Assembly: GCA_038831005.1 (NCBI GenBank)
Contig: JAWBKZ010000002.1
Span: forward strand, 124,001-188,000
Source of the DNA: Ignisphaera sp.
Lineage (GTDB): Archaea; Thermoproteota; Thermoprotei_A; Sulfolobales; Ignisphaeraceae
Reading direction: 5' to 3'
Length of the DNA stretch: 64,000 bases
The translations under genes were made by a program, and so were the position numbers. Positions 32,778 to 36,658 of this stretch are shown here, in pieces. Position 1 is the first letter of the stretch. Each line of letters begins with the position of its first letter. The notes beneath the pieces are model-generated. The model was not told where the DNA came from, did not search any database, and saw nothing but the letters and a program-made list of their open reading frames with translations.

Positions 32778-32921
32778 TTAAAAGTTTACACGATCATCTG
32801 GAAGCTCAATAGCATCGTGGACACAAATAACATTCTTTAGATCACATTCTCTAATCTTTTCTAAATATTTCTGACCTATTTGTGGCACATTAGTAAAGAA
32901 TTTTTGGTATAGGGTGCTCAA
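32778..32921 (-). CDS. Possible 47-aa protein at the end of the surface-fibre operon
   Basis: A TTG at 32921 overlaps the stop of the large surface-protein gene (TTGA). The frame codes for a 47-residue peptide with protein-like composition (for example DLKNVICVHDAIELPDDRV) and ends 4 nt before the phosphoesterase frame. There is no clear Shine-Dalgarno element, so translational coupling would be needed. No family is recognised; it may also be a chance frame. Confidence 0.35.
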   Translation of the reverse strand: MSTLYQKFFTNVPQIGQKYLEKIRECDLKNVICVHDAIELPDDRVNF

Positions 32922-34981
32922 GATAATAATTGGAGTGTTAACGGATAATAGGTACAAATACCCATATTGTTCGGTTCTGTACATACCTCTAATTTGAATT
33001 GTAGTGTAGCTGTTTGACCACCTGTCGTGAAATATCCTGAGAGAATTAGATAGTTAGCTCCACCTATGTTTAACTGAGCCTGATTTGTAGAAGAATATAT
33101 AGGTACTCCATTACGTATCGATATGTTCGTAGTCCTTGTGGTACTCTCGATCCATAGGTCTAGATTTAGTGTGGTAGGTGTTGAAACATGAACTAACAGG
33201 AGTCTGGTGTATAGAGCCTGATTGACAGAAATCCTGAGGAAACGAACTGTTGTAGTGAATGTGGATGAACTTGATATATAAACATTCACGTTCGCGCTAC
33301 TTCTATTGCTACCTAGATACACAGTCATAGGTTGTATCGATAGAGCGTAGGTATCCCCGCCTAGAATAGACTCTATCGATGGAACAGAATAGACTCCACA
33401 GACATATGCATCAGGATATCTGATCACTATTCTTCCATCTACACCAGTACCGACAACAATATCTCTCGCTACTCCGAGGTTAAACGTCGTGGATGTTCTA
33501 GTATAGTTTACTAGGCTATCAAGGTTATCCCATACTTCGACAACCATATTGCTATAGAAGTTCGTGAACAATATACCTCTAGGATCAACAGTTGATAATA
33601 TGAAGTCATCGAATCTGAACCATAGAGTTGTGGTCGCATCTATTGTAACACCTGCGTATGCTGGCCTAAACCTAGTAGTGCCTGTATCCCGAACAGTTAA
33701 AGTAGCTACCAAAATGCCGTTGTCATCGTATATCCAGAGCATAAAGTCTATCGATACACCGGTATCCACGTAGTAGAGAACAAGCGTATACCATCTCGTA
33801 GCAGAGTAGCTAGAGATTGTAGTAGATCCTAGAAATCTCCATGCACCGTCCCATTTCCAGACATATGCATTATATCCGTAAACCGATATCTCGTAGAGCC
33901 TATTTCTATCAATATTGATCAATCCTATGCCTTTGTAACCATCTATAGTCTCAGCTCTAGACCTAACAGAGATCCAGAGAGATGAATAATCATCTATCCT
34001 TGTGTTCCAGTAGTACTGTGAAGTTCTTCCTCCAACTCCCGTATTATTGTCTCTTCCCCTCAGAGCATTCCCCTTAAAACCTCCATTTACCGACAAATCC
34101 CAGATTCCTCCATAGCTGATCCATCCAGGTGTAGGGTATGTCTCGAAATCCGTGTACGTTATTGCTCCTCTAGTAGTTCTCACTAGGATTCTACATGTAT
34201 ATGTGTATGGTGGTTGCTCTAGAGTTGCTGGCGGTTTTTGTGGAGCTATGGATAGGGTTAGAGGATAGTATGTGAATGCTGATGCTATAGTTATGTTGGA
34301 GAACATGAAAACTGCTATATACTGTGTAAACTGTTTAAAGTTTATCTGCTTCTTCATAGCTAATACATCTCTATTGTGAAGCTTGGTTAGAACTAGAGCT
34401 GTAGCAGTAGCTGATGTCACTATAGCAAATCCTAGTATAATCGGTATAGCTGGAGTGTTTGTAATTATTTTGTTGAGTATTGTTGATTCTAGCCTAACTC
34501 CTGTATATATAATTGTTCCAGCACTTGTTCTAGCTACAATTTCGTCTCCAATCAGCTGACTGAATCTAGATACATCAAATTCAACTACTCTATAGAGATA
34601 TCCTGAGAAAAGTCCATAGAGAGCTCCTAGAGCTGCAGAAACACCATATACTAGACCTGATGATATATGTGGCTTATGGTTCATCAAAATGATTGAGATA
34701 GCTGAAGTAATCAGTAGAGCTATAGTGAGTATAAGGAATGTTAAGGAGACGTGTCTTACGTAATCTGTATGTGGCATAGATATGAGCTGTTTGTTGTAGG
34801 TGTAGTAGATTCTGTAGTCTAGAAGAGAGTAATATCCCTCAATATATCCTCTAAAGAGCCAGAGAGGTGTAGCCACTATAAGCACATAGACTAGCGATAC
34901 AAATAAACATGCTGTAGCAGATGCAGTTGTAAGGATCTTTACTCTTTTAGTTATCTTATCTTCATTGGTAGACCAAGCCAT
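32918..34981 (-). CDS. Large membrane-anchored surface protein with fibre-type donor-strand motif
   Basis: This 687-aa protein has several N-terminal membrane segments (about 22-44, 79-100, 107-127, 179-199), then a signal-like segment at about 219-236 ending IASAF, followed by TYYPLTLSIAPQKPP. The outside part (about 250-687) contains a LamG/jelly-roll-like beta region (FETYPTPGW...IYDDNGIL, about 280-450) and a further Thr/Ser-rich beta domain. The C-terminus ends in TYYPLTLQLLS, repeating the 237-243 motif. The post-signal segment matches the small fibre subunit (YYPLDITVVPQQP). The gene overlaps the signal peptidase gene by 31 nt, with GGTGA before the ATG. The anchor, base or tip role is inferred. 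Confidence 0.8.
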   Translation of the reverse strand: MAWSTNEDKITKRVKILTTASATACLFVSLVYVLIVATPLWLFRGYIEGYYSLLDYRIYYTYNKQLISMPHTDYVRHVSLTFLILTIALLITSAISIILMNHKPHISSGLVYGVSAALGALYGLFSGYLYRVVEFDVSRFSQLIGDEIVARTSAGTIIYTGVRLESTILNKIITNTPAIPIILGFAIVTSATATALVLTKLHNRDVLAMKKQINFKQFTQYIAVFMFSNITIASAFTYYPLTLSIAPQKPPATLEQPPYTYTCRILVRTTRGAITYTDFETYPTPGWISYGGIWDLSVNGGFKGNALRGRDNNTGVGGRTSQYYWNTRIDDYSSLWISVRSRAETIDGYKGIGLINIDRNRLYEISVYGYNAYVWKWDGAWRFLGSTTISSYSATRWYTLVLYYVDTGVSIDFMLWIYDDNGILVATLTVRDTGTTRFRPAYAGVTIDATTTLWFRFDDFILSTVDPRGILFTNFYSNMVVEVWDNLDSLVNYTRTSTTFNLGVARDIVVGTGVDGRIVIRYPDAYVCGVYSVPSIESILGGDTYALSIQPMTVYLGSNRSSANVNVYISSSSTFTTTVRFLRISVNQALYTRLLLVHVSTPTTLNLDLWIESTTRTTNISIRNGVPIYSSTNQAQLNIGGANYLILSGYFTTGGQTATLQFKLEVCTEPNNMGICTYYPLTLQLLS

Positions 34982-36063
34982 TTCACTTCACCTTGATTTA
35001 ACCAGTAAACATAGACATAAGCTATTTCAGCATATTTGGGAGGCTCAATAACGATTTGAGAAAATCCATCAATAACATAGCTTCTGTTAATCCATAACCA
35101 ACTATTGTTATCTAGATACCTAATGGATATATTAATGGTTATCGGAAAACAGTTAAGGTTTCTCGCAATTAGGATCCCATTTACAAAACTTATCTGAGGA
35201 TCTAGACCCCCTATCAAGATTGGATATTCTCCACTAAGTCTTCCAACTCTATTGAGTAACGCCTCAATCTTGATTACCAGAGGCTCTCTATACTCAAAAG
35301 CTTTCCTAAGCAAATCTTCACCAGGTTTAACAACTATTTCTCTAGGATTAAAATCAACAATATCTACTTTAGTAGAGTTAACCTCTACTTCTGTAAGAAT
35401 CATTGGTATAGCATTGATGTATCTAATGCTTAGTGTACAGCTATCTAACTGAAAATAAACACCTGCTAACCTGACTAGCGAAGGTTTAACTGGTTCAGCA
35501 TTGATTGGTCTAGGTATAGTTGAGTATACAGATAGAACAGTAGCAAAGATAACAATAAAGAGTATCGCATACGAGTAGCCTAGTACAAGTGTCTTCAAGA
35601 TATCGCGAACAAGATAAGCTACAGCAACTGCAAGTAGAGGGATCCAGATCTCTCTAGCCATCACAAACACAACCTTTCCTATAATCTTCTCGATCTCTAT
35701 AGGCGGATCTAGAGAATCAACGTTATCCCCTTTAGTTATGATCAACAATCTATCTCCATTAACTGTATCAAGCACCATAAAGTCTACAACTCTATGAGCA
35801 ATACAATGGTTTGGTGTCAAACAATAGATAACAATATCTCCGAGAGTGAATGATTCTCTAAAATAGATAACAATATCTCCACGTCTAAGAGCAGGCTCCA
35901 TACTATCAGAAATAACTACAGAAACACCGAACAGGCTTTGGTAACCAAATCTAGAGAGAAACGTAGATACAACTAGAACTATGAGTATAGCTAGTAATAC
36001 GTATGGTACATAGATGGAAGAGTTTGAGAAAAAACGTTTTATGCTCAAACCTACTCTATTCAT
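34951..36063 (-). CDS. Signal peptidase I, SEC11/SipW type, with C-terminal extracytoplasmic domain
   Basis: A TM helix (about 17-36) precedes ISDSMEPALRRGDIV with the nucleophile Ser54; IAHRV supplies His90 in place of the bacterial Lys (ER/SipW-type dyad), and TKGDNVDSLD the Asp113 region. Two further hydrophobic segments (about 140-180) lead to an extra domain of about 190 residues (180-370) of beta character, not found in minimal archaeal signal peptidases. It sits 13 nt after the fibre-subunit gene and overlaps the large surface protein gene by 31 nt, so it is probably dedicated to processing these two proteins. Confidence 0.88.
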   Translation of the reverse strand: MNRVGLSIKRFFSNSSIYVPYVLLAILIVLVVSTFLSRFGYQSLFGVSVVISDSMEPALRRGDIVIYFRESFTLGDIVIYCLTPNHCIAHRVVDFMVLDTVNGDRLLIITKGDNVDSLDPPIEIEKIIGKVVFVMAREIWIPLLAVAVAYLVRDILKTLVLGYSYAILFIVIFATVLSVYSTIPRPINAEPVKPSLVRLAGVYFQLDSCTLSIRYINAIPMILTEVEVNSTKVDIVDFNPREIVVKPGEDLLRKAFEYREPLVIKIEALLNRVGRLSGEYPILIGGLDPQISFVNGILIARNLNCFPITINISIRYLDNNSWLWINRSYVIDGFSQIVIEPPKYAEIAYVYVYWLNQGEVKWLGLPMKIR

Positions 36064-36076
36064 CTATAGATCACTG

Positions 36077-36658
36077 CTATCTTCCGCTATTTGGGTTTAT
36101 TGGCGGTGCTTCTCCAGATGATGGCGTATACACTAATCTAGCTGAAGCACTGTAGCTTCTACCCGTTATAGATGTTCCTTCAGGAATATATACATAGAGA
36201 TCTATCTGCCAGCTACCGCCAATCGGGAGCTGACCTATGTATTGTGCTGTGTTGAGTGTTGGTGTAGTTATGTCGAGTTCCTTCACTATAGTTGCTCCAC
36301 TATACACAAACATCTTTACTCTATTACCAACTGGTAAGCTATTGTCATAGGTATAGAAGATCACGTAGATGTGCATAGCGTCGTTATCGTTATTCACAAT
36401 TCCTAGGATATCTTTGTAGTACGTCTCTTGATATGTTGGATGTATCTCTATTGATGCTGATGCACCGCTAGTTCCTATGTTCACTATTATCGTGTTGCCA
36501 CCTATATCTGGTTTTCCTGCATTACTACCAGTTACAAATCTGACTTCTGGTTGCTGAGGTACAACAGTTATGTCTAGAGGATAGTAGGCAAATAGGCTAG
36601 CTGTCACAATTGATACAGCTAATATCAATAGTATTCCTGTTAATGCTTTTCTAAACAT
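36077..36658 (-). CDS. Secreted TasA/AbpA-like fibre subunit (putative)
   Basis: This 193-aa protein has a class I signal peptide (basic MFRK, hydrophobic 7-20, TASLFA cleavage region), giving a mature N-terminus YYPLDITVVPQQPEVRF. The remainder is predicted beta sandwich with no cysteine, Gly/Thr/Ser/Tyr-rich, ending in a Pro/Asn-rich tail. Size, signal-peptidase neighbour and the free N-terminal strand are like bacterial TasA/camelysin and archaeal bundling-pilus subunits (AbpA), which polymerise by donor-strand complementation; sequence homology is not proven here. The RBS AGGTGATG lies before the ATG. It is the first gene of a three-gene operon. Confidence 0.72.
   Translation of the reverse strand: MFRKALTGILLILAVSIVTASLFAYYPLDITVVPQQPEVRFVTGSNAGKPDIGGNTIIVNIGTSGASASIEIHPTYQETYYKDILGIVNNDNDAMHIYVIFYTYDNSLPVGNRVKMFVYSGATIVKELDITTPTLNTAQYIGQLPIGGSWQIDLYVYIPEGTSITGRSYSASARLVYTPSSGEAPPINPNSGR

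Follow-up and report, generated by a model that had tools for sequence, protein, structure and literature searches.

A probable thread-type donor-strand fibre operon with a putative self-completed cap protein and its own signal peptidase in Ignisphaera

The closest described counterparts of the operon analysed here, which lies in a window of 64,000 nucleotides from Ignisphaera sp. (assembly GCA_038831005.1, contig JAWBKZ010000002.1, positions 124,001 to 188,000 of the forward strand), are the threads of Sulfolobus acidocaldarius and the TasA fibres of Bacillus subtilis. In the filament structure of the thread subunit Saci_0406 (7PNB), a strand of one subunit completes the fold of the next, and Saci_0405, the putative thread cap, is a strand donor with a complete fold of its own (PMC9715654); TapA, the starter for TasA, is likewise a strand donor whose own fold is complete (PMC10151520). 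A mature N-terminal Asp, proposed to be used for an isopeptide bond, is seen in the Sulfolobaceae members described so far (PMC9715654), no chaperone or usher was found in the work on threads, and the function of the neighbouring genes was called elusive (PMC9715654, PMC11607397). The Ignisphaera operon consists of three open reading frames: SM (36077..36658, 193 aa), SP (34951..36063, 370 aa) and TIP (32918..34981, 687 aa). All of them, and every feature described below, lie on the minus strand; a check of the reading frames reproduced exactly the lengths and spacing given in the original prediction, with a gap of 13 nt between SM and SP and an overlap of 31 nt between SP and TIP. We consider it probable that this operon serves to produce and assemble a donor-strand fibre of the archaeal thread type, with TIP as its cap or initiator and SP as its own processing peptidase.

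So to which family of fibre subunits could SM belong? Searches of PDB, Pfam and NCBIfam with the single SM sequence yielded nothing useful for SM, and coverage of archaeal surface proteins in Pfam and PDB is poor. The sole PDB match at E<=10 of a profile (A1) built from 21 SM homologues is 7pnb, the Saci_0406 thread subunit of S. acidocaldarius (E=9.2e-5), in an alignment that spans the full length of both partners (profile positions 3-186 of 186 on chain positions 3-199). The AlphaFold2 model of SM is a beta sandwich (predicted local distance difference test, pLDDT, 89) in which residues 16-38 have no assigned strand, and Foldseek with this model again ranks 7pnb first (E=4.6e-8, template modelling score ~0.6), followed by the weaker match of AbpA, the subunit of the donor-strand archaeal bundling pili of Pyrobaculum calidifontis (7ueg, second, E=4.6e-5), and by a weaker tube entry, 9bab ('Hyper2 tube'), in fifth place. 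The second rank of AbpA agrees with the original expectation of a fold resembling a TasA-like sandwich; the hidden Markov model search against the TasA/camelysin and AbpA families found no sequence match for SM. Membership of SM in these families was rejected because there is no family match and the SM profile matches the thread only. Profile and model together indicate that SM belongs to the thread family, and the proposal of a donor-strand fibre equipped with a dedicated processing enzyme stands in so far as it now has homology and fold similarity to Saci_0406 behind it, its TasA/camelysin or AbpA affiliation having been dropped. The protein is divided into a signal peptide (36599..36658, residues 1-20, a hydrophobic N-terminus with a likely cut after A20, which is invariant in the 21 homologues), a donor strand and a head (36119..36538, residues 41-180), for which alignment and model indicate a beta sandwich with the conserved core HPTYxxTYYKxxxxxxNxD. 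In a close relative, G004, the SM gene is split into two frames by a stop (L040:8827-9138), and its peptidase and TIP are still open.

The donor strand is what links SM to TIP. The YYPL motif noticed earlier behind the export segments of both proteins is present, as YYPLDITVVPQQP at SM residues 25-37 and as YYPLTLSIAPQKP at TIP residues 238-250, and lies within the SM donor strand (36539..36598, residues 21-40, SLFAYYPLDITVVPQQPEVR), delimited from a strand profile and the monomer model, and the N-terminal donor strand of TIP (34223..34282, residues 234-253, SAFTYYPLTLSIAPQKPPAT), delimited from its strand-profile score. Against a profile of the SM strand of other loci, the window TIP scores 37.3 bits (match at residue 234), compared with a maximum of 9.4 over 100 shuffles, and 20 of 31 SM-TIP pairs score above their own shuffles; when the profiles of the two proteins are compared with each other, the same N-terminal stretch is aligned (E=6e-9, probability 96). 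When the profile is narrowed to the nine-residue core of the SM strand, most TIPs scanned have two top places, one behind the export segment and one at or near the C-terminus, which in the window TIP are TYYPLTLSI (237-245) and TYYPLTLQL (677-685). The latter, overlooked in the original prediction together with the fusion described below, belongs to a copy of the donor strand in cis (32921..32953, residues 677-687, TYYPLTLQLLS), preceded by C667 and C676, which are invariant among the fused TIPs and flank the turn into this last strand. The domain to which it is attached (32954..33364, about residues 540-676) aligns in hhalign, with the last strand removed, to the SM head at E=9.1e-10 (probability 96.5), and the same comparison detected no homology to the SM head in the controls, namely the TIP middle domain, the extra domain of SP, Saci_0407, Saci_0405 and Saci_0404. 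By this alignment the C-terminal domain of TIP is a divergent SM head, and the simplest reading is that of a pilin-like domain completed in cis, which would be able to donate a strand and would have no need to accept one. Pfam and NCBIfam scans of TIP gave nothing useful, and for the middle domain (33392..34204, about residues 260-530) no relative was found in Pfam or PDB by sequence; from locus to locus this part is highly variable in both length and sequence (e.g. L043, L046, L049, L052 and L056), with the two ends of TIP conserved, which is what one would expect if the domain is displayed and can be exchanged.

TIP is itself composite, being a secreted protein fused behind a part with four transmembrane helices (34367..34981, residues 1-205) that equals a free-standing gene of ~200 aa elsewhere and matches four-helix membrane proteins of another family at E=4.7e-8 in profile comparison. 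The two halves form one reading frame in the window and in six or seven relatives and are separate genes in most others. Between them lies a fifth hydrophobic segment, a putative internal signal (34283..34333, residues 217-233), the last residue of which, A233, directly precedes the donor strand. The fusion in this lineage, and the fact that the fifth segment could remain as a membrane stem, would fit an uncleaved TIP that permanently anchors the fibre base in the membrane, held by the four-helix part. We regard such an anchor as possible but rather doubtful: A233 is invariant among the fused relatives, and the unfused TIPs begin at the equivalent place with an ordinary signal peptide. Because this cleavage context is kept, we favour a cap over a permanent anchor, and the earlier phrase 'anchor or tip' can be refined to a secreted, probably self-completed cap or initiator, encoded apart from the four-helix gene in most relatives. 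A single origin of the fusion finds no support in the peptidase tree, where the window SP groups with sequences of other families and not with its own genus, and where the fusion needs two changes; this placement suggests that the locus has been transferred, and that the two halves were either fused twice or fused once and split once. G009, which is placed in the genus of the window genome, carries the locus in unfused form (L023/L056).

The identity of SP is more straightforward. It scores 60.1 bits against TIGR02228 (cut-off 51.85), its best PDB relative is human SEC11C (E=9e-14), and the peptidase part (35674..36015, about residues 17-130) contains Ser54 (35902-35904), His90 (35794-35796) and Asp113 (35725-35727) in columns that are invariant or nearly so among 32 homologues. 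On these sequence grounds SP is an archaeal Sec11-type signal peptidase, as had been proposed under the name of a SEC11/SipW-type enzyme with an extra domain of about 190 residues. This extra C-terminal domain (34954..35523, residues 181-370), probably extracytoplasmic, is modelled as two tandem beta domains resembling immunoglobulin (Ig) or fibronectin type III (FnIII) domains (pLDDT 93.7). It is homologous (E=9.6e-12) to proteins without a peptidase that stand beside SM in another family, f3 (L110, L111 and L112), which marks it as a separable component. The two-Ig-domain layout, along with the donor-strand principle, recalls the chaperone-usher pili with their Caf1M-type chaperones, and the extra domain is possibly chaperone-like. 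One could therefore imagine SP as a fusion of peptidase and chaperone, which would cut the pre-subunit and hold the incomplete head with its own Ig-like domains until strand exchange, so coupling processing to polymerisation, the peptidase-free homologues being the chaperone alone; we put this forward tentatively, as an idea that is more apt to fail than to hold. Unlike chaperone-usher systems, the locus has no outer membrane or usher to work with, and many Ig/FnIII tandems match the extra domain in Foldseek, among which those of the cytokine-receptor type and others outscore the Caf1M chaperones (ranks 47-48, E=2e-3). The fold search does not establish the extra domain as a chaperone. A comparison of the extra domain with Saci_0407 gives a weak match (E=1e-3, probability 21) and the link is no more than suggestive. 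The two reading frames of S. acidocaldarius at the position of Saci_0407/0408 (L105:7152-7983) correspond to the halves of a 276-aa gene that is intact in the sister species (L104:7071-7901), and this split may explain the 'fusion' of Saci_0407 and Saci_0408 reported in some species.

Could the operon then be a genuine TasA/camelysin-SipW system of the archaeal bundling pilus type? The resemblance to tapA-sipW-tasA of B. subtilis (PMC10151520) is not trivial: both sets have three parts, namely a fibre subunit, a self-complete strand-donating starter and a dedicated peptidase, and both have overlapping genes; SP also has a sub-threshold match to the Bacillus SipW model NF046067, and AbpA is the second fold match of SM. 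We nevertheless hold this reading to be improbable, given that SM has no match to the TasA/camelysin family by sequence, that its profile matches the thread subunit alone in PDB and gives no sequence match to AbpA, that the SipW score of 44.8 bits falls far under the cut-off of 190, and that an AbpX-like protein in another genome adjoins a differently built peptidase. The window set further differs from that of B. subtilis in the two-domain extracytoplasmic extension of its peptidase and in its four-helix membrane component. The likeness to the S. acidocaldarius thread comprises full-length homology and the best fold match of the subunit, a Tyr-rich strand behind the signal peptide, a cap-like neighbour gene and a similar layout with neighbours that have one or multiple transmembrane helices.

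The thread-type reading can accommodate these observations in a simple chain of events. SM would be exported by Sec and, as its donor strand immediately follows the signal peptide, would be kept at the membrane until SP cuts after A20; cleavage would release the strand and trigger assembly, in which, by homology to Saci_0406, the freed strand would complete the fold of the next SM. An alanine precedes the presumed cut in TIP (A233) as it does in SM, so that TIP, too, would present this strand behind such a cut site, and its SM-like C-terminal domain would be filled by the last strand of TIP itself. A protein that gives a strand and need not receive one would be expected once per fibre, and TIP would serve as starter or cap, like TapA in TasA fibres, displaying its variable middle domain at its end of the fibre. 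The four-helix protein and the Ig-like domains of SP may be membrane-side parts that assemble, hold or guide the subunits, and these are the roles of which we are least certain. That the three proteins do not polymerise and instead make up an adhesin, an S-layer-associated assembly or another surface complex we judge very unlikely, since SM is homologous and fold-matched to a filament subunit and has a free N-terminal strand that is copied in TIP, even if the middle domain of TIP, for which no relative was found by sequence, and the fact that no filament has been seen here could speak for it.

How widespread is the locus, and does its distribution fit the proposed function? SM was found in 73 of 214 genomes in a search of the order and in 59 of 398 genomes in a search of the phylum, and the locus has a wide distribution within the order. 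The usual set in the loci fetched comprises SM, a secreted TIP, an extended peptidase of ~350-390 aa and a free four-helix membrane protein of ~200 aa. An SM gene lies <=6.5 kb from all 29 extended peptidases checked, a count that refers to loci away from contig ends, many of which were found via the peptidase and some via SM.

Several facts weigh against the thread-type reading or set the locus apart from the threads described so far. Among 21 loci selected by SM and away from contig edges, 10 have an extended peptidase within 6.5 kb and 11 have none, so that the expectation of a linked peptidase in the homologues holds for only part of them; it is absent at the SM loci of Sulfolobaceae and several other lineages, where processing must be left to a general signal peptidase. 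The thread isopeptide Asp is not at mature position 1 in any of the 21 SM homologues, which have Ser, Ala, Thr, Gly or Asn instead (Ser in the window SM); of the YYY/Asp signature of threads, YY is present and the Asp absent. The window SM also differs from the thread subunit in having no N-glycosylation sequon. The window cap, self-completed by its strand copy, has no sequence homology to Saci_0405 or Saci_0404 detectable in profile comparison, and none was detectable between the four-helix part and the Sulfolobaceae gene for a protein with multiple transmembrane helices. A dedicated peptidase, too, sets the window operon apart from the S. acidocaldarius thread, and the chaperone-like matches of its extra domain are weak and non-specific. 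Co-evolution of the SM and TIP strands was considered and discarded: the raw within-locus excess (p=5e-5) is no larger than phylogeny leads one to expect, as a regression on SM divergence predicts 5.5 of 13 positions and 5.4 were observed. Finally, no filament has been seen in the organism. Going by the alignments, we would describe the locus as a homologous but divergent branch of the thread family, the chemistry of which is not claimed to be identical to that of threads.

The flanking genes are unrelated, encoding, according to a family scan of the window, a YfcE-type phosphodiesterase, an HD-domain protein, NurA and HerA. The genome of the window species, of ~1.7 Mb, has an additional 174-aa frame that matches the peptidase family and lies elsewhere, apart from SP. 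Other genomes of the order contain paired secreted proteins of 190-230 aa with the mature start MWSETL, beside a signal peptidase of 406-430 aa with multiple transmembrane helices (L060:8207-9601, L060:6808-8028 and L057:824-3415). One of these proteins matches AbpX (9sj2, E=9.6e-7), which, next to a peptidase of different build, suggests that a TasA/Abp-like fibre coexists in the order.

No genes are known for the assembly of archaeal threads, and the locus offers testable candidates for this machinery. A recurrent four-part set, comprising a subunit, a self-completed cap, a peptidase with two Ig-like domains and a four-helix membrane protein, occurs across an order of hyperthermophiles, and the fusions within this set point to parts that act together. 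If the peptidase-chaperone fusion proposed above for SP were true, the peptidase-free homologues of its extra domain would be a candidate for the assembly factor of thread clusters that has not been identified in Sulfolobus. With this divergent branch, the thread family reaches beyond the few Crenarchaea from which it has been reported so far.

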